A stretch of DNA of 64,000 nt from Amphibalanus amphitrite. Lineage: Eukaryota; Arthropoda; Thecostraca; Balanomorpha; Balanidae. The DNA lies in assembly GCF_019059575.1 (NCBI RefSeq), contig NW_024881704.1, positions 682,001 through 746,000 on the forward strand, written 5' to 3'. The notes under the pieces were generated by a model that worked only from the letters and a program-made list of their open reading frames with translations, was not told the origin of the DNA and did not search any database. Positions 1-61,301 of this stretch are shown here, piece by piece (position 1 is the first letter of the stretch; the number at the start of each line of letters is the position of its first letter). A program made the translations under genes and the position numbers.

Positions 1-1539
1 TGGGACGACGTTACCGACGATCCAGAGCTGCGCGAGCAGATGATGTACATGGCTGAGCGGATGGTGAAGGATGATCCAGCGCGAGGTCACTGGCACGTCA
101 GTGGAGACAGTGCTGTCGTGTGGACGGACGCCTCCTCTGTGGCGGCGGGAATCGCTCTGGAGACGCAAGATGGAAACATCATCGAAGACGGATGCTGGCT
201 TCGAAAGGATGAGACGACTCACATAAATATGGCAGAGCTCGATGCCGCCCTGCGAGGCCTCAATCTAGCTATCGCCTGGGGCATGCGAGTCATCGAGCTG
301 AAAACGGACTCGGCCACTGTTCATCGCTGGCTCGACGATGCATTAAGTAGCCGAGCACGTCTCCGCACTAAGGCCCACGGGGAAATGTTGATACGGCGCC
401 GAGTCGACATAGTCAAGCAGTTGGTGGCCGAATTCAACCTGCATCTGACAGTGACTCTGGTGAAGTCGGCGGACAACAAAGCGGACTGCCTCAGCCGGGT
501 TCCCGCTCAGTGGCTGCGCGGTCCACTGAACGGAGAGTCCGCTGGGACATGTGGTGCTGCGGTGAATGCTGAGTGCACCAGCGGTGATGAAGATAGCTCC
601 AGCACGAGCGGTGATGGCGGCGATGGCGTCGGGGCAGATGGGACCGAGGACGAAGAAAGAGGACGGCGAGCAGCGGTTCGCGAGGTGCACACCCGCGCAG
701 GCCATCCTGGAGTGCAGAGAACGCTGTTCTTCGCTCGGCGCGAGATTTCTCCGAACATTACGAGGAGAGAGGCGCGTGCTGTCGTGTCCCACTGTGACGC
801 ATGCAGGTCTATCGACCCAGCACCAGTTAAGTGGAAGCCTGGGAAGCTGGAGGTGAACGAGTCCTGGACTAGGCTGGCGATTGACGTCACGCACCACCAG
901 CGCAGTCTGTACCTGTCGGTGGTCGACTGCGGTCCTTCGAGGTTCAGTTTGTGGAGATTGCTTCGAAGGGCAGATTCAGCGCACGTCATTGAAGAGCTGC
1001 ATCGAATTTTCAATGAACGTGGAGCTCCAGAAGAGATCCTGGCGGATAATGATACCGCCTTTCGCAGTCGGGCGTTTGCAGTGTTCGCGGCAAAGTGGAT
1101 AATTCGGCTGAGGTTCCGCGCCGTCTACCACCCAAGTGGAAATGGTGTGGTAAAGAGGAATCATCGGACCGTGAAGGTCATAGCCGCAAGAACAGGGTGC
1201 ACCGTTGGCGATGCCGTGCATCTTTACAACGTAACACCTCAGGACGGACAGAGCTCGGCTACGACACCAGCCGGACAGATCTACCGGTACTCGGTCAGGG
1301 ACAGCGTGAGGACAGACACTGGCACTGGTGGTGATCCAGCGGACGGCAGCGGTCCGGAGGGCAGGGACAGCACCTACACTGTCGGGGACGCCGTGTGGGT
1401 CCGACAGCCTGGATCACGCTGTGGTGATAGGTCGCAGCCGGGTGTTGTTACCAGGGTGCCGTCACTTCATATTGTAGAAGTGGACGGGACCCCATGGCAC
1501 GTTGGTGATGTTCGGCACCGCAGTGAGAGTGACCCTTGA
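1..1539 (+). CDS. Ty3/gypsy-like retrotransposon pol, 3' half (RNase H + integrase), cut by window edge
   Basis: The frame is open from base 1, so the ATG at 40 is internal and reverse transcriptase lies off the left edge. Residues are numbered from that ATG. An RNase H domain comes first: WTDASS near residue 28, an acidic residue in NMAELDA, KTDSATV, and NKADCLSRVP near 147. A linker rich in Ser, Gly and Asp follows. The integrase then starts with an HHCC finger (HTRAGHPG to CDAC, about 216-256). Its catalytic core has LAIDVTHH and LADNDTAF as the two Asp sites. Where the family normally has Glu in GNGxxER, this copy reads GNGVVKR (Lys at about residue 372, codon 1153-1155), which should abolish integration. 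The tail (GDAVWVRQPG to VEVDGTPWHVGDVR) is a GPY/F-like module. The frame is otherwise intact and ends at TGA 1537-1539, so the copy is probably young but integrase-dead. Assignment to Ty3/gypsy rests on the domain order and the tail. Confidence 0.85.
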   Translation, partial: WDDVTDDPELREQMMYMAERMVKDDPARGHWHVSGDSAVVWTDASSVAAGIALETQDGNIIEDGCWLRKDETTHINMAELDAALRGLNLAIAWGMRVIELKTDSATVHRWLDDALSSRARLRTKAHGEMLIRRRVDIVKQLVAEFNLHLTVTLVKSADNKADCLSRVPAQWLRGPLNGESAGTCGAAVNAECTSGDEDSSSTSGDGGDGVGADGTEDEERGRRAAVREVHTRAGHPGVQRTLFFARREISPNITRREARAVVSHCDACRSIDPAPVKWKPGKLEVNESWTRLAIDVTHHQRSLYLSVVDCGPSRFSLWRLLRRADSAHVIEELHRIFNERGAPEEILADNDTAFRSRAFAVFAAKWIIRLRFRAVYHPSGNGVVKRNHRTVKVIAARTGCTVGDAVHLYNVTPQDGQSSATTPAGQIYRYSVRDSVRTDTGTGGDPADGSGPEGRDSTYTVGDAVWVRQPGSRCGDRSQPGVVTRVPSLHIVEVDGTPWHVGDVRHRSESDP

Positions 1540-1620: not shown

Positions 1621-4279
1621 TGGTGCCTCACTCTATTTGTATTTTATGTAATTGCCGGAACGCATAGTAATTTTCACTCGCGCAAAAACACGCGGATGGA
1701 AAATTTGACGTGCAGATTTGAGGAGGAAAATAGACAGTCGGTTTTTGGAGGAAGTTAACCGTCTTTTATATTCTATTTATTTTTTATATTACATGTATCA
1801 AGAAAATACCCAATAGTAGATGATCCCCTTGCAGATATCATTCATTAGCTGTAATTTAGCACCAAATCGTTGCAGACTGCAAAAGATATGAGCATAACTG
1901 GCTGTAGGATCTTATGTAACTGAATCCGTTGTAACCCCGCGTCCCTCATTTTGAGACGACCTTTCGGCGTTTGTTGCCAGCCGCATTGCCTTACTAATTA
2001 CGAGCTTTGCGATTGTTGGCTCTGGTAACCGCTGATAACCTTACAATTACCCATTAAATCAGCTCTTGTGGTGCGGCTGCTAACAGAAACGATTCCCACT
2101 TGGTATAATTACCACATTGCACCGCCCGGCACACACTTGACGACTAAAAACAACAAAAATAGCTGAAGTAGATTCAGTTAGGTTAGTTTAACTCATCGGT
2201 GAAACATAAGATAGACCAGGCAAGAACAGGGACTGTAACCCGGAAAAGACAAATAAGACTGCACAGCAGTTTAACTTATAAATAGCCCATCAAGATGCTA
2301 GCTGAAGTTGAGATCATCTGGTATCCGGGATATCGGAAATCTCGGAACGAGAATAGCACGATGGACAATCTCATCATACAAAAACACACGACACCAGTTT
2401 AGCTCTGTACCGGTGCCGTCCGTACCCAGCCCAGGCCGGGCCGGGACTTTTCGATCTTTCGATCTTTTCGATATGAGTCGATCTTCTCGTACCATTTGTC
2501 ATCTCATAATCCGGCGCCACGCCGGCCTCAATTCTGATACAAGTCGGAGTGGGCGAATATTTGGCATAGATTGACCGGGCTGGATCCCTCCTAGCTCGTC
2601 ACTTCATCTTTCATCAGATGATGGTCTGCGAATCAGACCGCCGTGGTCCGTGTAAACCACCCTGGTCCCCGGATCAGACCGTCCTGGTCTGTGTGGACCG
2701 TCTCGGTCCGGCCCGGCGTTGGTCCCAGTCCGAAGGATAAGGCGGGGATCATCACGGGACTATCGCGTGATGCTTGTGTTTGTGGCAGACAGATTGAGAG
2801 TTGGATAGTGTACGGGATGCTATCGGTCTGCTTTTGAGCTCAGCTAGTCGGCTAATCTCGGATATTATGAATATAATAAGAATTGCATTCCTTTTTCTAG
2901 TACTTCGCCGCATCTTAAGTACTCACCTCTCGTACCAGATGCACTGACTAAGACAAAACAACCACAGAGCAGGCCATGCGAAAACAGGCTCATTTATCCG
3001 CCCACGACTGCTGGAGCCCCTCAAACAACAATCCCCCATGGCCGGCGAGCAGCGGCGCCCTTGAACTGGCGACCTGTCTGGAGCGCTCTCTGGCGGCCCA
3101 CAGGTCGCTCCGCACCGTACTGTTCCCCTGTGACCGGGTCGGTGAGTTCACACTCCCTGACCTGGCGGAGAGCGCCCGGGCAGCCACCGCGGCCCGGCGG
3201 TGACACTACCGGGACTACCACAGCTGCCATGGCCCTCGGCGCTCGTCTCGTTCAACTATACCCTTGGATTGGATGTTCATCGGGCCGGCACCTACCACCT
3301 GACGGTTTTCTGGTAGTCCCCCCCCCCCTCCCCCTCCAGACCCTCTGACGACCCAACTCGAGCCGACCGAACTCTCCTGTAGCGGCGGCGGCGGGGCGCC
3401 CACAATAGCCCACTATTTGGACGTCCAGCTAATTTCGGCCCATAGTCCGTCCAGACCCCACAACTCCGACGGTGGCTGCCAGTAACCCTCCCAGTCTCCC
3501 TGCTAGCCCCTCTCCCAAAATGGGAGAAATTAATCGCCAAATCGCCAAATTAATTAAATTAACTTGCCAATAGGCATTCATAGTCACCTGATAATGGGTG
3601 GTGACGTAGCGAAACGAATATATCAGCGATCCGCACGGTAGATAATGACGGAGCCGCTGACCAGAATTAATTTCAAAATGGTGCGCGCACAGGCAAAAAG
3701 TTGAATTGCATCCGCTAGCATTGTTTTTGTTTCGATATTCGAGATGAACAGTCTATGTATACTTCAGACTTCTGATCTCGCTGTCAACAGCAGACATCCT
3801 GGATAGCCATTTCAGTGGAAGAACTCGCGGAACCTGTCGCCTTCAGCTGCGTGGAATCATAACTCAAACAACCGATTCCAGGCTGGATTGTGAACGCATC
3901 TTGCCCAGTTGATGGCAGGCCAGACGAGCAGCTCAGCGTCAGGTCATCGTGCTTGAGCAGTAGGTCAGGTCAGTCAGGTGATTTGGTCCGTCAGGTCCAA
4001 GCTTTCTAACACTTCGTTTATAGAGGGGTGAATGTCACATGTGCTAGAAAACAAACATAAGGTCGATATTTGGTGAGATGGATTATACTCAACAGGCATT
4101 TTGGACCCTACTGCTCGCGATGGGTCGAATTACTCAAATTATAAACATAAAAAATGTTCTGTTGGAAATATACGATTACACTTATCCAACTAATAACGAC
4201 AGACGCTGGTCAGGCCACGTCAGGTCAGGTCAGGTCAGGTCAGGTCGGGTCACGTCAGGTCCAGTCGTCGGTCACTCAC
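1621..4279 (-). other. Terminal part of aPKC intron (probable retroelement LTR plus intergenic-type sequence)
   Basis: No coding exon was recognised here. The left part (from 1621, right end unclear) is probably the 3' LTR of the retroelement. A degenerate tandem of GGTCCGTGTGGACC-like units lies at about 2630-2715, and a C tract at 3319-3332. A GGTCA pentamer microsatellite lies at 4215-4262, directly downstream (transcript sense) of the exon B donor. The last aPKC exon, with the FEGFEYINPLL-type hydrophobic motif, was looked for on the minus strand and not seen, so it should lie left of the window. Confidence 0.5.
4215..4262. repeat. GGTCA pentanucleotide microsatellite
   Basis: About eight near-perfect GTCAG/GGTCA units occur on the plus strand. 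In the aPKC transcript they read as repeated CCTGA(CC), starting about 17 nt after the exon B donor. A shorter CCTGACCCGACCCG stretch follows the exon A donor, so the two alternative exons share this kind of downstream sequence. Confidence 0.8.
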
Positions 4280-4395
4280 CGATCGTCGGGGGTCAGCTGG
4301 ACGGGTTCATCGGTGAACTCTGGCGGGAAGTTGGCCAAATCTCTCTCCGTCTCCACGCGGGGCTTATACGGCGGGGTCACCTGCTTCTGTTCGAG
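4280..4395 (-). CDS. aPKC: aPKC alternative C-tail exon B (mutually exclusive with exon A)
   Basis: This exon encodes the start of the AGC-kinase C-terminal tail: LEQKQ, then PPYKP, then the EPVQLTPDD turn motif with its phosphorylatable Thr. It is 116 nt long, enters in phase 0 after a TTTGTTGCAG acceptor and leaves in phase 2 at CG|GTGAGTGA. It matches exon A (4812-4927) in length, phases and donor octamer, and is identical at 21 of 38 residues. In place of the NFD motif that reaches the ATP pocket in AGC kinases it has NFP. A CTGAC branch-point-like motif lies about 32 nt before the acceptor. Using A and B together would break the frame, so they should be alternatives. The turn motif makes this exon a certain family match; the alternative use is inferred from the sequence. 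Confidence 0.9.
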
Positions 4396-4811
4396 CTGCA
4401 ACAAACGTCCGCCAGGGGCGCCACCGTCAGCGGCGGCCGGCCGGACGGTGACCCGGCGCCCGGCGGGCGGCGCTACCTATCGCACCCGGCGACCGACAAC
4501 ACGGGCACAACACTCAGCTGCCAAAACGAAACGTAAGCACTGCACCGAACAAAACGAAAGCGCAGCCACTCCTGAAAACATAAACGTAAGGCGCTATCGC
4601 TGCCTAAAAAACGCAACTCAACGCCAAACACCACTATAACGGGAACGAAAGCCACAGCGGTTGTAACGTAAACCATACGAAGCAGTACCAACAAACACAG
4701 GGACAGGGTCCAGCAGGCGGGCAGGCTGGCAGGCTGGCAGATGCAGGCTCAAGCCGACCTCGACAGTGAGCGCAGGCATGCGGGTCGGGTCAGGTAAGCC
4801 ACATCACTCAC
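4396..4811 (-). other. 416-nt intron between the alternative exons A and B
   Basis: This spacer starts (transcript sense) with the GTGAGTGA donor of exon A and ends with the TTTGTTGCAG acceptor of exon B. After the donor comes CCTGACCCGACCCG. It also holds short CAGGCTGG repeats near 4720-4745. At 416 nt it is long enough to be spliced, so steric blocking does not obviously explain exclusive use. Frame disruption, decay of the double-inclusion product or RNA pairing would have to. Confidence 0.7.
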
Positions 4812-4927
4812 TGGTCGGTGGGAGTGAGCTGGACCGGCTCAGACGTGAACAGGGGGTCAAAATACTCCAGGTCTACGTCGCCCGACAGCGGGGGCACGTA
4901 CGGAGGTATCAGCTGGCGCGCCTCCAG
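4812..4927 (-). CDS. aPKC: aPKC alternative C-tail exon A (mutually exclusive with exon B)
   Basis: This is the second version of the C-tail exon and comes first in transcript order. It reads LEARQ, PPYVP, LEYFDPLFT and then the EPVQLTP turn motif. It is 116 nt long, with phase 0 entry after CTTTCCGCAG and phase 2 exit at CA|GTGAGTGA. Compared with exon B it keeps the Asp of NFD (as YFD) but lacks the Asn, and the stretch between PPY and the turn motif is almost wholly different. Both copies keep an open frame, consensus splice sites and the turn-motif Thr, so neither looks like a dead copy. The remaining C-terminus, in a common last exon, would be read in the same frame from either. Confidence 0.9.
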
Positions 4928-7900
4928 CTGCGGAAAGGCACCGACGCACCAGCGGTTAGTTGGGTTAGTGGGCAGCGGGTGAAGTGGGTTTAGTGGGGTT
5001 AGTCAGTCCCGGGTGTAGTGGGGGTTTGTGTCACCTGGGTTAGCGTGGGTTAGTGAAAAAGTGATGCCGGGGTAAGCGGGTTTGTTGTGGGGAAGGGGAG
5101 TGAGACAGTAAGCGATGAGAAGTGACCACTCGATTAGTGGGGGACTGTCCGATGCCCATGCTTTATCCTGAGATGTAAGGCTAGAGAAGCGGGAGAAAAT
5201 CAGTGGCTTGTAGCGTGGCAGAACAACGGAGCAGAGTTATTTTGGCCTGTATGATATACGTCGCTTCTATCATTAGAGCCAGGACAAGTTAGCACAGGGA
5301 AGGATCATTCAAGATTCACCGGTTACCAGCATACGTGCAGCAAGAGTTACTTCAACATTCATCAGTTAAAAGTGGCACACACGCACATATTGTTAGCAGA
5401 ACCTCCAACAACACTTGCATATGTGTTTGAACTTTGAACAGCAAACAACCAAAGCACTGGCACCACATTAATACACGTAACAGCGGTAACATTGACACTC
5501 AAACACAGCAAAACTCGTCGTGGGCGCATTGTGGGCTTAATGCACGTCACCAGAACACGCACTTCCAAATAACGCAGACGGGACAACCAACGAGGGCATA
5601 ACCACGAGGCTTACATCTGCTGCTGACAATTTACAGATAGCATGAACAGCGAAATTCGTATATAGCCGTACATAGTAATTCAGTTAAAATTCGACCTAAA
5701 TTCGATTTGCAACCCACGTGACATTACGCTATCAAGAGGATATAACTGTATGCTACCCCCAGCGCCTGTCTAGCATCAAGTCCGGTGGAGCCGCTTTATG
5801 CTGGTGGCCTCCGTCAAATCTCTAACGTCTTGCCTGCTCAAGGCTCAGTGCAGTAATCGGACGGACAGGCACGGAATACCGCGCTGGCTGGGACAGGTAG
5901 CAGCCAGTAGCAGCGGCTCTGATGTGCCGAGAAACCACCTCCGTTGCACAGTCACGCGCGTGAGGCCATTTTAAGCCCGGCCACCACCGTCGGCGCGGCG
6001 CGGCGGTGACGAGGAAGACCCGACTCGCCTGTTCCGTGCACTGTTTGTATCAACATGTCAAACTAAGCCTGATTTCGCGAGTAGACTCCATAAATCCGGT
6101 TGCCATGATGTCATTTCATGCACAGCGCCCGACCACAAGCGCCCACCGAAATACGAAGCCCGCCGGCTTCCAACAAACTCCCAAATGCCGGCGGTCACAT
6201 GACGTTAGATCGCTGGCGGGGGTCGCTTTGATGACACCGGTGAAAACTCCCCGCTGCGGGGCCGCTCCACTCCCCGAAATGGCGACACGGCACAGCAAAC
6301 GGAGCCCGCCGCCCGGCCGTGTAGGAGGCCGGCAGGTAAACATCCCACCCCCGATCGACAGATACTCCCCGGCACGTCGACAGCAGCATGCGACGCGGAC
6401 CGAGTGACCCGCGCTGCCACACACGCTTGCCGTGGGCCAGTCGGCGGCAGGACGGGGGCGGAAAGGGATATCCAGGCCCCATTTGGGAACAGACACATGT
6501 CACGATGCATCGGAGCGCATGCAACCGAGTGACAACAGAGGTGCCGTTGTCCTAGCGGCGATAGTCGACCCACGGCCTGTCGACAGCGCTATTGTTGTCA
6601 GATGAGACAAACTGGCTCGACCGCGGCGCGTGGCGCCGTGTGGGGAGCCGCGTGTCACAGTGTCGAGCGCCGCGTGTCAGGTTCGGGTGACGTGTGTTAA
6701 GTGTGTGTCGGTGTGTCGGATGGCCCGCTTTAAGTCGGCACCATTACTGACCGACGACAGAGTCACAGACCACAGCCTTGGCCAGCAATTTCAGTGCGAC
6801 GAAGTGACTAAATTGACCCCGTCACGGCGGAGGTAGCACGGCACGCCACTGTGCTGGCAGCCGGGTCCGAAACGAAGCTCGATCAGGTGACCACCGGCGC
6901 TCTGACGACTACCATTTCCTCGCTCATCCCTCACCGGGTAAAACTGTGGCAGTACTTAGCGCCGGATACCGCGCCGGCGAATCTCAAACGCTCCAACTGC
7001 CATCCGGAGGGCCGCTCTTGGTAAACACTGACGTCAAAGGGTCGCGCGCGCCGGCCCGATTCGATCGCCGGTCGACTAACATTTGGGTTCGGCGGGCTGC
7101 GGAGGCCGGACAGACGGTAAAAATGCGGAAACAGCAGCGCGCCGCCGCGACAGCCGCTCCGCCCGCCGGACGGACAGGAAATGAGCTCGCTCAACAGCGC
7201 CGCCGAGCCCCGGTAAATGTTTTGGCGCCGCCCGAACAGTCTGAGGTGATCGCTCACAGCTAATGGACGACCGATTATAAAAGTCAACGGGGAAACATTT
7301 ACAGCTCATGCAAATAAAGACATTGCCCAAGGCGGTCTTAGCAAAAGCAGGCGAAATATTCCAACAGCGAAGGCTTGTCAGACATTGGGCGGCACACTGC
7401 CGAGAAGTTAGGCATTTTCATTGTTCAGAAGTGAACCGTAGGTACTGGAGGTGCGCGAGCCTCATAATCCCAGCATCAATTTAATTACATCTTCAAAGAG
7501 TAAGTTCGCGCACCAGAATTTAGAGCGAACGCTTCGCTGGGCTCTTTCCACGCCAATCTCTTCAAAGAATCCAATTGCGCTGCCTCCCGTGAAAAATAAG
7601 TCGCTTCAAAGGCACCTGCCGGCAAGACGAGAGATTCCAACCAATTCGTTAGTTTAAAAGTTCCGTCTTCAGGGCTGCCGGAATTTCTCAACAGCGAGTC
7701 ACGGTGCCGGGGGTCCGGGTCGACCTGTCACGGACCATAAACTGTCCTGCAAGGGGCCGACGCCGGGCCGCTGGCCAGTCGCCGAACAATGCCACGGCGC
7801 TCCGCATGCCGCTCGAGCCAAACTCCAAAACTGCGACGCTGGGGACGCGCGCCCACACAAACGGATCTGCCCGACCGACAGCCGGAAAAGCATTAACATA

Positions 7901-10900
7901 CTTGCGAGCGCCAGAGTCGTTAGCGACAACGAACTTGTTCTCGGACGTTCCTGAATTGTATCCGGAAAGCAATGAGCGCGGCTCGAGTGCCTGAGATGCC
8001 CGGTTCGTCAACCATCCGGTGGGTCAGCAGCGGAAAAGGGACGTCCACCTAGCTACTGGGGGCCGCGTGACGACATAAATCCGAATTGATGAGCCGCACA
8101 GAGGATGATTCACTCTTCTAGAAATAGAAAATTACGTATGCAAGATCTCGGGTTCGGCGCCGCTCAACAATGCCGATGGCGGGATAAAAGGTTCATGACG
8201 GCGTTCTTTAAGATCGTTTTCAGCATGTGACGCGGGTTAGTAAATGCATCCTTTTACGTACACAATAATATTCAAGGTTATGTGGATTACTAACATGGAT
8301 TTACCAACAACGTAAAGCCGTTCTGTCAGATTAAGATGTCACTGAGCCTTGCAATATTAATTTTTTGCTTCTGATAAAACTACCGTGATGAAGGACTATA
8401 AAACTTTTATCATATTTATATAAATGTTATCTAGCATAATGATCTAGCGTTGCAATGGCCACGGTAGCTCGCCAGATTGCATGACACATGGGGGCAACAC
8501 ATCGCTACTGGGTATAGTGACCGGAAGTCACGAGAAGCGGACCACGCGATCAACATCTTGGCACAGCATCTGGCACTGCTCTGAACGTTACATAACAGCT
8601 TCTAAAAACGGCAGAAAATACGGAAGAGTAAAAAACCACTGCATTCCCAAGATAATATTTGGATACTGTTTAGTTAAATCCTCTTACACCACGCCACTCT
8701 ATTTCAAGCCGAACTGAGCCCAGCTATGCGCAATCTTATTTTGAACCATGCCCAAGCTCCAACCGAGCTCTCCGCGCTCTGCCAAACCACCGGGCTGCTT
8801 TATCCGGAGGGCAGCGTCCGGCTGCCTTGCAGGCCCGTGTCCTGCCCTAATGAAATTTCAGACTGAGCTGTGCCCAGCGGACCGGAATCGGCCGCGGCGG
8901 TGCAGCGGTGTAACTTTGGCCCGCTTCCTGCCGGCCGGGCGGTGGAACGCCGTCACCGCCCGGCCCGGAGCTGCACGTACCGGCTGCCGTCCCTACCGGC
9001 GCAGAGGCACGGAGCACCGGGCACACGGTCGGGTTAGTCGGGTCAGAGGGGTCAGTCAGTCCACCAGCCGGCGCGGGTTGCGATAGCTGAGATATGAAGA
9101 GAAATGCAGTCAATATGTCGCGCTACATGTCACCCAACCGGAGCCATGTATAGCTGCTAGACAAATTGGTGGCGTTTTACAGGCAAGGCTGACAACTGGG
9201 AAGATATAGTGCCAATCTGGCACGTGGCTGTTTCAATGCGCTTGTCGTCCGGCCTTTCGGCTTTTCGGCGACTCTGCAACTCGGGTCTGTCAACTGCTGG
9301 ATACATGACTATTGACTGGGCGCCTTGCTGGGCACAGTGATTGATGGCCGACAGATTCTGGCGGATTATCCATCGCTGCTCAGGTTGCAGCCAGTATGCC
9401 AACATTTCCTGGAAAAGACATCTACACTAGCCATAGCCAAAGCCTGGTGTCTCTGCAGGTCTGCCCGTTAATCTGAGCTAATATCCTGGCGCCGCGTGGG
9501 CCTCCCACTCGCGATCGAAGGCGCCCAATCAATGTCAATGCTGCGCCTTGAGAGACGGGACAGATCCACACAGCATGATCAGTTAAACACAAGGTAAGTA
9601 ACATCACGACCACAATGATGCTAGCTAGACCATCAGTGGGAACAAAGCAGGAGACCACCGTGCACGAGCTCTAACCACCATGAATAGTCATGACACGGTC
9701 CTTACGAGCCACGTTACACCTTCCGTAGGCATTTTCGTTACACCTTCCGTAGGCATCGTAGACACCACTGCAGTCAGTTATGCCGTGCGGAGTTTCCAAG
9801 CAACCCCCGCCAGTTGCGATAGCTGACTCAGTCTCAGCACTCAGCAGCAGTGTCAGCGACACCCGCAGGGACAGTGGATTGGACGGCGGCGGTCGCTAAA
9901 CCGCAGACCGATGATAAGCCAGCCACCGTCTCTGGTAATCCACGTGCCGACGGCGGCGGACCGGGCGGGGGAGGCCCCTCAGCCGGTAGCTGATCCAGGG
10001 GATGCCGGTCCCCGGCCGAGCCCCCAAGTAGTCCCCAAGCTCCACTGTTATGGAGTACAGGAACGGTGACAGCTGGGTGGCCAAAAACGATGGCAAGGTA
10101 GCCGGTGGTGAGCGGGTGGAGGGCTGTCAATGCACCCAATGACCTCAGGTGACGGCACGAGACGGCATCAAGAAGTGACCCAAACGACCAAGGTAGATTC
10201 TAGCCCTAGGTTCGCTTGATTAGCTTATCAGATGGATTACCTTAGAAACCAGTCCATGTGGAATGAGCTAAGCCACCAAACAAACAACCACAACGATCCA
10301 CGCCTTCCATCATCATTGACTAAACCGATTTTTTTTTTTAGTCAATCAATCCATCTCGCGCTCTTCAATCATTTTTTTTTTTTGAAGTCTGAGTAAAAAA
10401 AAAACCCTCACCACCTTTCACCCCTTCCGCGTACGTACTACGGCGCACGGGCGACAGCTGTCACAACCTGTCACCTGGGCTGTCACACCAGCCGCCACCT
10501 TCCTCCTGTAAGGCGGCACGCCACGCGGCCTGTCCGACAGACAAAAAACCACCGAACACGGCGCGTGACACGGCGCCTGACGCGCCGGCGGCGGTACCGC
10601 GACAGAGCGACAATGCCGCGGCGGCGACGGAGGGTTCCGCGAAAACCGGCACCGCACGGCGGCCGGCTGGATAGGTAGAGGGGACGCACGGACAGACGGC
10701 GGCCTTGGCTCATAGCTGGGACAGGGACGGTATGAGAGAGACGATGGTGGCGCTACGCACGGAGCTGCACTGCTACCTGGCGGACGTTTTGTGAAACTTG
10801 AGCGCAAAAATGATACGGTAAAAGTTGCTTTGTGGTCTGGATGCCGACCAGCCCCAATAGCCACTTTGGTCATTGGTGGTACGGGTATCTACTTCCATGC

Positions 10901-11449
10901 GTGAGCATCACTGCCGTGGCATATGCATTGCAAGTCGGTAACTTATCAAACACCTAATAAGGATCGCGCACCTTATTTACAGAATTTCCTCACATTCGGA
11001 ACACACAAAAATTCAGCTCTCATTACAGACTTGCCTGGTAAAGTGACCTACATAACGCCACCATACTGCAATTCAATAACAAAGGTCACACGATAGGGCT
11101 AGAAAAACAGCACAATGTGGCATATAGACAGTTTACCACACCGCGTCATAATCAACTCCTGTAATCACTGTCATCACACAGCAAACACAGTGACAAGAGA
11201 CATGAGAACGACATAAACACGCGCGGAGCCCACCATCACTAACCAACACATACATCACTGAGACAGTGACGCCTAATCATTAATTATATTGCATGCATAC
11301 TCGTTATTAAATTGTCAGACGTCCTTGTGCAGTTACTTTGATACACCACGTCAAGCCGCCCTTTCGGAGTCAGTGGCACCTATTTCTTTTCCCTTCCCAC
11401 CCACGGCCAATCCTCTAGCCAACCTCTTCCGTAAGTCCCCTAGACATAC
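4928..11449 (-). other. Large aPKC intron upstream of the alternative exons
   Basis: No coding exon was recognised. At the 3' end (transcript sense), 4955-5060 carries repeated CTAACCC motifs on the minus strand, described separately. A direct repeat of about 20 bp (GTTACACCTTCCGTAGGCAT) occurs at 9713-9754, and there are poly-T runs near 10330 and 10372. The 6000-7250 and 8750-9070 stretches are GC-rich and open in several frames, but I recognise no protein there. Confidence 0.6.
4955..5060 (-). promoter_or_regulatory. Cluster of CTAACCC branch-point-like motifs before exon A
   Basis: Read on the minus strand, the 130 nt before the exon A acceptor contain about five CTAAC motifs, mostly as CACTAACCC, in a degenerate tandem (TGGGTTAGT on the plus strand). 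CTAAC fits the metazoan branch-point consensus. The nearest one lies about 35 nt before the AG at 4928-4929. Exon B shows only a single CTGAC at a similar distance. This could strengthen or modulate exon A use; function is inferred. Confidence 0.35.
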
Positions 11450-11619
11450 CAGTTCCCAGTCGATGGACTTGAAGAAGGGGTGGTTGACGATGTCCTGGAA
11501 GCCGGTCTCCGGGTGGCAGCCCAGCCGCTCGCCGGGGTTCTTGTTGAGGAATCCCTTCAGGATGCTGCACGCCTTCACGGAGAGCGACCGAGGGATGCGG
11601 ATCGTCTTCTCCAGAATCA
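11450..11619 (-). CDS. aPKC: aPKC exon: C-lobe end of the kinase domain
   Basis: This exon encodes [13 protein letters not shown], then [18 protein letters not shown], then [11 protein letters not shown], which are the last helices of the aPKC kinase domain. The family segment RLGCHPxTGFxDIxxHPFF is almost intact. It starts in phase 1 after GTCCGCCAG (completing the V codon of the previous exon) and ends in phase 0 at CTG|GTATGT. That matches the phase 0 entry of both C-tail exons, so either can follow it. Length 170 nt. Confidence 0.96.
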
Positions 11620-12876
11620 CTGGCGGACGGCAGCGGCGGGAGGTAAGTCAGGTGATGGCCCTAGAGAAATGCTGCCGGGTCTCACGGAGCTGGGGCGATG
11701 GTGCTTGGGAAGGGCGACGGGCCTACGGGGAGGTGATGGTCCTGATAGAGGGGTGATGACAATCAGGAAACACGTGACGCCGCGATGAACACACCATTAG
11801 CGGTGGAGACACTCGAGAGGGCGGCCGATGTCTCCTGCGGCGTGCCAGGGCGTCATCTGGGAGCCGCCTATGCGTGAGTTATGGTAGCCTTGATTACATC
11901 CTAGCGTTCAACAGTTCAAAGGTTGCAACATATAACCATAGGTATTAAAGCAAAACCTCGCTAAAATGTAGCTACCATGATGAAAACAAACTGAGTAGAC
12001 GAATAAGACAAAGAAAACTGAGGTTGCCTTTGATCCATCAAACATGTCCTAGTGTTTGCAAAAAGATTAAAGGACCAGAGATTATAACACACGGTTTGCT
12101 GGCTGAAGCTATTAACAAAACTTACAATTCAAAAGTCAGCTTGCCGAAAAATGGGGCAGGATTAGACAGCAAAATGGCGGATCTGAAAACATATTCACTC
12201 CAATGCCACGTGGGGCACGCTAAAATCGCCAGTACAGCGAACTTGCACACAATCAGTAGGCCCGTCCAACTTCTGTAATCGGGGCGAGTAGTGTCGGGGT
12301 TATATCAAACAACAAATCCCGGCTGGCTAGCCCGCTTCGCTCCGAGCTACGAGCGAGTCTCCCGCTGCCCTAACGTCAGTCTCACGGCACACCACGTCAC
12401 AAAGTGACGTCACATCACGTCACGTCACACAGCTGACCGGAGACGTGCGCAATGAGCGCCCGTCGGAGGTGGGGCGCCATCGCGGCGGTCAGCTCTGGCG
12501 AGGAGAGGCTGGCACGCAGCCCGGCCGGCCAGCACCCTGTCACGTCACAGCGGCGGACCGGCGCGGAGTTCACGAACTGGTTAAAACAGAGCCCGGGACA
12601 CTCTGCAGCCTTTTGGACCCCCTGTGGTTCCCCACAGCCCTTCCCAGAGGCCCAAGCAGTCTCCTGCAACCGACTGTGCCCCCACGCTAGCAAGCTGCAA
12701 CCTCCTAAAGCCCTCGTGATTCTATAGAGCTCCGGTAAAAGCCCTGCAGTCAGCCAAAGCATTTCAAATATAGAGATCAATTAACATCACTCATGAGAAC
12801 CTTCATCCTTCCGGTCATCAGAGCCTGGTCTCAAATTTCCAGCCCCCAGGGATGAGACAACTACGGTTCTACCGAC
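11620..12876 (-). other. aPKC intron (1.3 kb)
   Basis: No coding content recognised. A cluster of cAMP-response-element-like sites lies at 12388-12430, including one perfect TGACGTCA and several CACGTCA units. Confidence 0.6.
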
Positions 12877-12995: not shown

Positions 12996-14108
<1,113 letters not shown>

Positions 14109-22645: not shown

Positions 22646-22776
22646 CTTCATAGCGTAGACGCGCTTGGTGCGCTTCAGCTCGACCATCAGCACCTTGGCG
22701 TAGCTGCCGCGTCCGATGACGCGGATCAGCTCGAAGTCTGCCAGCGAGTACTGCCGCTGACCTCCCGGCTCCAGAT
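22646..22776 (-). CDS. aPKC: aPKC exon: glycine-rich loop and catalytic lysine
   Basis: This exon encodes a short linker, then [20 protein letters not shown], then [22 protein letters not shown] is the ATP-binding glycine loop, with the Tyr/Ala of PKC family members. The last codon is the catalytic Lys of AMK. The intron falls right after it (AAG|GTCAGT, phase 0) and the next exon continues V-I-K-K. Entry is in phase 1 after GTCCCGTCAG. Length 131 nt. Confidence 0.97.
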
Positions 22777-32634: not shown

Positions 32635-32827
32635 CGGGTGAAGGCACATCCCGCTCGCCGTTAGCGGAGTCAGTCACCAGGTGTGTCGGCGCCACCGGCT
32701 CGCCCGTGCATTTCTTCTTCAGTAGCTTGTGACACTTTTTATGGATGAGCAGCTTACACTGGGTGCACTTGAAGCCCTGCCGTCCCAGGCCCCAAATCCG
32801 GTCTTGGCAGTAGGCACAGGCGGCGCT
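32635..32827 (-). CDS. aPKC: aPKC exon: C1 (atypical zinc finger) domain
   Basis: This exon encodes [40 protein letters not shown], then a linker ending DVPSP. With the His of the previous exon it builds the C1 zinc-ligand pattern: His, 12 residues, Cys-x2-Cys, then Cys-x2-Cys, His-x2-Cys and a final Cys. [18 protein letters not shown] is what I recall of insect aPKC. In aPKCs this finger does not bind diacylglycerol and serves in autoinhibition and protein contacts. It enters in phase 0 after TTTTGACAG and leaves in phase 1 at CCCG|GTGAGT. Length 193 nt. Confidence 0.97.
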
Positions 32828-36935: not shown

Positions 36936-37021
36936 CCGGTTGAAGCGTTTCGCCTGGAAGATATGGCCATTGACCTTGTACAGTTTCCTCCATCGCCGGG
37001 CGCCGCGCCGATATATGCTTC
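36936..37021 (-). CDS. aPKC: aPKC exon: pseudosubstrate and start of C1
   Basis: This exon encodes [14 protein letters not shown], then [26 protein letters not shown] is the aPKC pseudosubstrate, with Ala in place of the phosphorylated Ser/Thr, and it is essentially invariant from flies to humans. The His in NGHIFQ is the first zinc ligand of the C1 domain. It enters in phase 1 after GTCCCCCAG, its first two bases completing an Arg codon started by the 44571 exon. It leaves in phase 0 at CGG|GTGAGT. Length 86 nt. Confidence 0.98.
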
Positions 37022-44570: not shown

Positions 44571-44621
44571 GGTCTTCACCGGCGCATGGCATCCCCGGGG
44601 CGGGCGGCACACCGGGAAACA
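44571..44621 (-). CDS. aPKC: aPKC exon: end of the PB1 region
   Basis: This 51-nt exon encodes (V)FPGVPPAPGMPCAGED. It corresponds to the HVFPxVPxxPGMPCxGED segment that closes the PB1 domain of aPKCs and leads into the pseudosubstrate. It enters in phase 1 after TTTGTTGCAG and leaves in phase 1 at GACC|GTAAGT. The split Arg codon is completed by the 37021 exon. The PB1 domain binds Par-6 and p62; its core is not in this exon. The acceptor and first 17 nt are duplicated 65 bp upstream. Confidence 0.93.
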
Positions 44622-60431: not shown

Positions 60432-61301
60432 TCAGCCCTGCGACTGGTTGGCCGACCTGCCGCCAGAGGCGCTGCGGTCGGGGTCGCTCCTCTCAGTACC
60501 TGGCCGCGCCGCCGCGAGATGGCCGGGTTGCTGACCGTGGGCGTCTGCCGGCGGCGGCCGCCGCTGCTGAACCCACACACGACTCGGTCCGTCCTCTGCC
60601 GCCCCCGCCCCCGCCCCGGCCGCCGCCGCCGCCGCTGCCGCCACACCGGCCGCCGCGGCTGCCGCCGCCACGGGCGCCGACCGGCCCGGGTACAGGGCGC
60701 CGGGCGGCGGCGGGGGACCGGCATTATCCAGCCGGCTCTGGTAAAGGTGCAGCGTGCCCTCCTCACCCACAGAGCGGGCCGGCAGCAGGCGCGGCGGCGG
60801 CGGCGGAGGCAGCGCGCGCGGCCGCTCGAAGCACTGTCTCTCCGGGGCTGCGGGAGGCGCGCAGCAGGCAGGCCGCTCCGGCTCGGCGGGTCCGCAGCAG
60901 GGCGGCCGCTCCAGCTCGGCGGGCCCGCAGCAGGCCGGCGCCCGCTCCGGTTCACTGAGTCCGCAGCACGACTGTCTATCGGGCGGCACCAGCGGCGCTC
61001 CGGGGCCGCAGCAGGTTCGTTCCGACACCGGCGGCGGCGGACAGCACAGGCGGCCCGACGACTGCGAGGCCGGCGGCGGCGGCAGCGGCGCGCCGCGCGG
61101 TCGGCACCCGGTCCGCGGCGCCGGCTCGGGCGACAGCTGACACTGACACTGGCAGCCGCAGCCGGCCTCCAGCGGACAGCCGGCGGCCGCCGCGCCGCCG
61201 CCGCTGTTGGGCAGGTAGCCGTTACCGGGCCGCGCCGGCGGCTGACCGCTGCCATCCAGTCGCGGTCGCAGAGAGAACGTGCTCCAGTAGCCCCAGGCCA
61301 T
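60432..61301 (-). CDS. Hypothetical Pro/Ala/Cys-rich protein or alternative 5' exon (uncertain)
   Basis: A 289-residue open frame starts at an ATG in good context (CTCATGG). It has no recognised domain. Residues about 86-140 contain an 11-residue repeat of the type CCGPAEPERPA; its DNA units are 33, 33 and 36 bp, so length changes keep the frame. Poly-Pro and poly-Ala tracts follow. A CCAG|GTACTG donor in phase 1 lies near 60495; its phase would fit the 44621 exon or any other phase 1 aPKC acceptor. Against it: the DNA is very GC-rich and stop-poor, and an antisense frame of 322 residues is also open. It may be a separate gene's exon, an alternative aPKC first exon lacking PB1, or non-coding. 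Confidence 0.3.
   Translation of the reverse strand: MAWGYWSTFSLRPRLDGSGQPPARPGNGYLPNSGGGAAAAGCPLEAGCGCQCQCQLSPEPAPRTGCRPRGAPLPPPPASQSSGRLCCPPPPVSERTCCGPGAPLVPPDRQSCCGLSEPERAPACCGPAELERPPCCGPAEPERPACCAPPAAPERQCFERPRALPPPPPPRLLPARSVGEEGTLHLYQSRLDNAGPPPPPGALYPGRSAPVAAAAAAAGVAAAAAAAAGAGAGAAEDGPSRVWVQQRRPPPADAHGQQPGHLAAARPGTERSDPDRSASGGRSANQSQG

Follow-up and report, generated by a model that had tools for sequence, protein, structure and literature searches.

The question raised by this locus is what two 116-nt exons, lying 416 nt apart in an atypical protein kinase C (aPKC) gene of the barnacle Amphibalanus amphitrite, contribute to the C-terminal tail (C-tail) of the kinase. We analyzed a window, meaning the whole stretch of 64,000 nt (C207:682001-746000), together with the genome assembly from which it comes (807.55 Mb, 2644 contigs). 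A sequence-only reading had interpreted the two exons, here called A and B, as tandem-duplicated and mutually exclusive versions of the same piece of the AGC C-tail. With good confidence, we conclude that the locus is an aPKC gene with a tandem-duplicated, alternatively used C-tail exon pair, most likely an old splice switch.

Anatomy of the locus and its two C-tail exons

The aPKC gene runs on the minus strand from a linker exon through the pseudosubstrate and C1 exons to the kinase exons, the last of which occupies 11620-11450. Its parts are given below in window coordinates, except where the contig is named.

44571..44621, minus strand: aPKC linker exon
36936..37021, minus strand: aPKC pseudosubstrate exon
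32635..32827, minus strand: aPKC C1-domain exon
22646..22776 (ends approximate), minus strand: aPKC kinase exon with the glycine-rich loop
21786..21933 (end approximate), minus strand: aPKC kinase N-lobe exon
13578..13759 (end approximate), minus strand: aPKC kinase exon with the catalytic loop and activation segment
12877..12998 (ends approximate), minus strand: aPKC kinase exon
11450..11620, minus strand: upstream exon common to A and B, end of the kinase C-lobe (...DWEL), phase 0
4928..11449, minus strand: intron 5' of exon A
4812..4927, minus strand: exon A, 116 nt, LEARQLIPPYVPPLSGDVDLEYFDPLFTSEPVQLTPTD, motif YFD; counterparts in Pollicipes and insects
4396..4811, minus strand: A-B intron, 416 nt, U2-type GT-AG sites
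4280..4395, minus strand: exon B, 116 nt, motif NFP; 38/38 identical in the public record P0068
1..4279, minus strand: first part of the 35.5-kb intron downstream of exon B
C207:650813-650726, minus strand, outside the window (in L006): common last exon, acceptor ag followed by GAAAGTGATC, hydrophobic motif FEGFEY

The assignment to the atypical PKCs follows from the exons located by tblastn, which cover the pseudosubstrate, C1 domain, kinase domain and a C-tail with an acidic hydrophobic motif, and from PB1-type matches upstream of the window (L015, C207:766001-776000). In the barnacle Pollicipes, record P0002 was matched by the Pfam PB1, C1 and kinase domains. The last exon, which had been predicted to lie to the left of the window, was found there, 35,466 nt further downstream of exon B. 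A 512-aa retroelement-like frame on the plus strand (window 1-1539, RNase H and integrase by eye), open at the window edge, sits inside this large intron. At the other end of the window, a minus-strand frame beginning MAWGYWSTFSL... starts at 61301 and runs downward; it holds the sole MAWGYW on the minus strand of the window, and MAWGY stands at the N-terminus of 6/128 fetched aPKC proteins (Folsomia, Periplaneta, Neocloeon, Lycorma, Anopheles and Malaya). This frame looks like a conserved alternative aPKC start that replaces the PB1 domain.

The coordinates of both exons on the minus strand (4927-4812 and 4395-4280), as well as their spacing, were verified. Each contains 38 full codons, and the two agree at 21/38 residues and 67/116 nucleotides; as had been claimed, PPY and the turn motif EPVQLTP are kept by both, and the NFD-type motif reads YFD in A and NFP in B. 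Splice reconstruction reproduced the phases of the earlier reading, with both exons entered in phase 0 from the exon ending at 11450 and left in phase 2. An AG precedes both exons and the donor octamer GTGAGTGA follows both, although the octamer carries little weight because two other donors of the aPKC gene also read GTGAGTG; its use as strong evidence was consequently dropped.

The homology of the pair was supported by independent comparisons. A tblastn search with a human PKC-iota query (residues 530-567) matched exon B at 1.7e-10 and exon A at 1.4e-8, and the Pfam Pkinase_C model scored the full tails at 46.8 and 47.2 bits (cut-off 20.9). These matches and the similar Pkinase_C scores ruled out a chance resemblance between A and B. 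Moreover, all ten exon columns that are invariant in a 32-protein alignment are kept by both exons. The pair thus shows equal length, equal phase, intact splice sites, homology and a position as neighboring internal exons, features by which mutually exclusive tandem exon clusters are recognized in the sections of PMC3228551 that define them. No third copy of the cassette was found at the aPKC locus. Just downstream of the exon B donor lies an array of TGACC pentamers (window 4208-4266), the only one with at least three units in 104 kb of contig C207, and a shorter TGACC-related stretch (window 4783-4798) lies just downstream of the exon A donor; both are also present on contig C470, a second copy of the locus described below, and they are possibly a shared splicing element.

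Reading frames and exon choice

In the proposed mechanism, the pre-mRNA would join the exon ending at 11450 to either A or B, and either of these to the same last exon with FEGFEY. Reconstructed transcripts that contain A alone or B alone encode a full aPKC tail to the normal stop. Omission of both exons shifts the frame, which then runs past the normal stop. The prediction that inclusion of both would break the frame was borne out, as A+B adds six residues followed by a stop, located 97 nt before the junction of B with the last exon. A stop so far ahead of an exon junction usually marks an mRNA for decay. Barnacle transcripts would accordingly be expected to use one exon at a time, and A+B transcripts would be likely targets of nonsense-mediated decay.

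A protein search with the exon A region returned one match of two candidates, P0001, annotated as Atypical protein kinase C of Amphibalanus amphitrite and identical at 43/43 residues. P0001 has A only, lacks exon B and the last exon, and breaks off within the exon A donor at ...LTPTDQ. Exactly this end is expected if exon A were an alternative terminal exon, with read-through to the TGA in GTGAGTGA so that the resulting aPKC would lack the hydrophobic motif; it is the exon A donor itself that closes the frame, and P0013 of T. douglasi likewise stops just after A. However, P0001 lacks most of the catalytic-loop/activation-segment exon (13759-13578) and is therefore an incomplete model. A similar stop would also follow exon B, and the exon A donor is a good one in either copy of the locus. 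Furthermore, A continues into the last exon in Pollicipes X2, Bacillus rossius X6/X10, Aedes aegypti X3, Culex X3, Malaya X1, Culicoides X2 and Thrips palmi X2. We consequently regard a terminal exon A as very improbable and retain the reading of two internal alternatives.

Exon B has a counterpart in P0068, a complete, intron-free 591-aa frame on a 2248-base contig that is 81% identical to Pollicipes; owing to these properties, it probably derives from a spliced transcript of a barnacle-like crustacean. Relative to the window, P0068 is identical over the exon B stretch (38/38) and matches the kinase exons at 259/277 residues.

A cockroach record, P0017, contains A joined to B out of frame. 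After A and one joining residue, 40/40 residues are co-encodable with the normal frame of B, compared with at most 5 for 200 shuffled tails. This join confirms the order and phases of the two exons in cockroach and indicates that exclusion is not absolute there; single A and single B tails are also present in records of other species. Mechanisms that would impose strict exclusion by a steric block or by a U2/U12 mismatch were rejected, given that the 416-nt intron is long enough to be spliced and that both donors are U2-type GTGAGT. A search for RNA pairing, confined to 250-nt flanks in one species and compared with a simple shuffle, gave pairings equaled by 30/30, 4/30 and 18/30 shuffles. With a spliceable A-B intron and U2-type sites at both donors, nothing found here enforces the choice of exon, and broken frames together with decay may instead remove splicing errors.

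Distribution, constraint and age of the pair

The pair had also been proposed for verification in related species, and it is present in insects. The interpretation as tandem-duplicated exons for the same aPKC C-tail piece, each sufficient for a full tail and each conserved elsewhere, stood, except that the arrangement is not special to the barnacle. The protein lists comprised the single match for the exon A region, the best 120 of 1183 matches for the C-lobe plus A, and 9 matches for an Aedes A-type tail; all queries were A-type (two barnacle, one Aedes) and the database was clustered at 90% identity, so that isoforms are under-represented and absence from flies, moths, beetles and wasps shows nothing. 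Many of the relatives' records are automatic gene models.

Among the matches listed, A-type tails occur in at least 17 named species, two barnacles and 15 insects. The barnacles are Amphibalanus amphitrite, the species of the window, and Pollicipes pollicipes (isoform X2). The insects include polyneopterans (Bacillus rossius X6 and X10, two Timema species, Periplaneta X5 and Gryllus bimaculatus), thrips (two Frankliniella species and Thrips palmi) and dipterans (two Aedes and two Anopheles species, Malaya, Culex and Culicoides). Both types are found in the records of at least seven insects among the matches listed, namely Bacillus rossius (X5 being B), Periplaneta (X2 being B), Gryllus, Timema cristinae, Aedes albopictus and the two Frankliniella species. 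Predicted isoforms of both types are thus already in public protein records. Merged models that hold both exons place A first in 6/6 cases, again among the matches listed.

We also identified a second copy of the locus on contig C470 (L002, L008-L012), about 95% identical and colinear from the upstream exon to the last exon, which carries A, B and the last exon in the same order as C207. As C207 and C470 alone match the upstream exon at >90% identity in the genome search, C470 is probably the other haplotype, with a recent duplicate as the alternative, and the assembly probably holds both haplotypes of some regions. Between the two copies, exon A differs at 3/116 positions and exon B at 3/116, all synonymous, compared with 21/416 (5.0%) in the inter-exon intron, 5.0% upstream and 11.8% downstream. 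The neutral probability of three synonymous changes out of three is 0.019-0.032 for A and 0.011-0.024 for B, on small numbers. Neither exon looks like a relic, though the counts of changes are small. The donor of exon A is good on both copies. Between the window barnacle and Pollicipes, exon A is identical at 30/38 residues and the kinase exons at 275/277; judged from this comparison, exon A is under weaker constraint than the kinase exons in barnacles. The A tail of mosquitoes is identical at 40/40 residues between Aedes aegypti and two Anopheles records.

These data bear on the idea that one copy is a relic or a poison exon, such that protein comes from B alone and the only effect of A is to reduce aPKC output by way of transcripts with a broken frame. 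The premature stop of A+B 97 nt ahead of the next junction, the A+B form in cockroach P0017 and the lower conservation of A relative to B in barnacles are all in keeping with such a role. Against it, the three changes in A between the copies are all synonymous, none of the 10 invariant columns is lost in A, the mosquito A tail is unchanged between Aedes aegypti and Anopheles, and annotated isoforms join A in frame to the last exon. Therefore, we give this explanation only a slight chance and favor two protein-coding alternatives.

The motif state was then compared across 123 parsed tails from 128 proteins, mostly the first tail of each; P0005, P0006, P0028, P0029 and P0040 were left out, as were the B tails of merged models such as P0004, P0018 and P0127. 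In this sample, xFD is found in 107/123 tails (81 HFD, 23 NFD and 3 YFD) and xFP in 16/123. Ten of the 16 xFP owners are named, and all ten are pancrustaceans; the named chelicerates, molluscs, echinoderms and fish in the list have xFD. Within this sample, the distribution suggests that A represents the common state and that the FP of B is derived, so that the FD of A is probably ancestral.

To place the duplication, a tree was built from 32 hand-chosen tails over 38 columns, without near-duplicates and without P0068 (its B tail equals that of the window); with 38 columns only, the tree is weak. The nine B rows, from barnacle, insects, Daphnia and malacostracans, lie on one side of a branch with support of 94/87, a value below the level at which the tool itself regards a branch as shown. 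The A rows form no single clade and occupy several places, and forcing them together was not rejected (p-AU 0.453). A tree that keeps barnacle A and B together is worse by 10.9 log units (p-AU 0.125), and one that does this for polyneopteran A and B is worse by 15.6 log units (p-AU 0.052). Barnacle B is identical to insect B at 33/38 residues but to barnacle A at only 21/38. A recent, barnacle-only duplication was set aside as the leading reading in view of the grouping of the B tails, these identities and the cost of 10.9 log units.

Separate duplications in barnacles and insects, with the pairs having become alike by convergence, are unlikely but deserve more weight than the alternatives considered above. 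Tandem exon duplication has recurred in PKC genes, as PRKCB, Pkc53E and pkc-2 are among the convergent cases in the portion of PMC9741552 that treats them; in addition, the A tails are scattered in the tree, and lineage-specific pairs survive the AU tests at the 0.05 level (p 0.125 and 0.052). Conversely, the B tails of barnacle, insects, Daphnia and malacostracans group together, barnacle B is closer to insect B than to barnacle A, A stands upstream of B in the barnacle and in the 6/6 merged insect models, and the 10.9 log units count against holding the barnacle pair together. A single duplication before barnacles and insects diverged is the most economical reading and the most likely one.

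Possible function and precedents

Each exon encodes the part of the AGC C-tail that begins where the C-lobe ends, includes the NFD-type motif and extends to the turn motif. Beside the Phe of the motif, A has Y and D and B has N and P, and the tether before the Phe differs too. Both barnacle forms keep the Phe, the turn-motif Thr and the common hydrophobic motif, and both should therefore mature as kinases. In the structures described in the consulted part of PMC12687424, the Phe of the NFD motif contacts the adenine of ATP bound to PKC; the motif is also able to face outward (PMC12687424; PMC3675085, in the passages on this motif). A, with YFD and the tether VPPLSGDVDLE, and B, with NFP and a different tether, may position the tail differently above the nucleotide pocket or with respect to partners, and our best guess is that the isoform difference tunes closure of the ATP site, stability or partner contacts. 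Tissues or stages could thereby set aPKC activity, stability or partner choice, in the manner of PKC-betaI and PKC-betaII.

We tentatively extend this to a more specific proposal, which we consider possible though somewhat doubtful: a pancrustacean switch that predates the barnacle-insect split may exchange Asp, which follows the ATP-contacting Phe in A and is the ancestral residue, for Pro in B, yielding two polarity kinases with different nucleotide-site closure or partners. The fly aPKC protein presumably carries NFP. If the proposal is true, insect aPKC work with the B-type form only would have missed half of the system.

A close precedent is PRKCB, in which, as proposed for the aPKC pair, the PKC C-tail with its NFD, turn and hydrophobic motifs is exchanged by regulated splicing (PMC13385876; PMC3537621, in the relevant excerpts). 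According to the part of PMC13385876 concerned, PKC-betaI and PKC-betaII differ only in about 50 C-terminal residues and in membrane affinity. In PRKCB, a conventional PKC rather than an aPKC, the betaII exon is included or left out and brings its own stop, so that about 50 residues up to the protein end change, in the account given by these excerpts. In contrast, the aPKC pair consists of two internal exons with a common last exon and changes 38 residues; neither exon ends the protein, since both run in frame into the last exon. PMC9741552 names PRKCB, Drosophila Pkc53E and C. elegans pkc-2 as genes whose homologous tandem exons are convergent in different phyla; these exons resemble the aPKC pair but belong to conventional PKC genes, and the main text of that paper, as far as consulted, makes no mention of aPKC. 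FYN is a further parallel, as its FynB/FynT exons are mutually exclusive tandem exons that alter a kinase next to the ATP site (PMC9741552, in the section concerned); FYN is, however, a tyrosine kinase, and its exons cover the SH2-kinase linker and N-lobe rather than an AGC C-tail. Dscam and 14-3-3zeta likewise choose one exon from a tandem cluster that is old in arthropods, but do so with competing RNA pairings (PMC6071210, in the parts dealing with these genes).

The aPKC exon pair was not found in the main texts, as far as consulted, of PMC3228551, PMC3303723, PMC6071210, PMC4603746 and PMC9741552. More generally, no description of it was found in the literature searched, a scope to which most subscription papers did not belong. 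CG42783 is a gene that we take to be aPKC. An event CG42783:7 is listed without detail among Drosophila splicing events in the accessible part of PMC4603746. Tandem mutually exclusive exons are well known as a kind, and the aPKC pair is probably a further case, an old one, in an important kinase.

Cell polarity depends on this kinase, whose C-tail extends into the ATP pocket; a choice between exons that is conserved at just this place would amount to a natural experiment on the control of a kinase by its AGC tail and would add a further PKC gene with a C-tail switch beside PRKCB. For annotators and for users of insect aPKC constructs, the existence of two forms is of practical concern, as at least six public models among the matches listed hold both exons at once.
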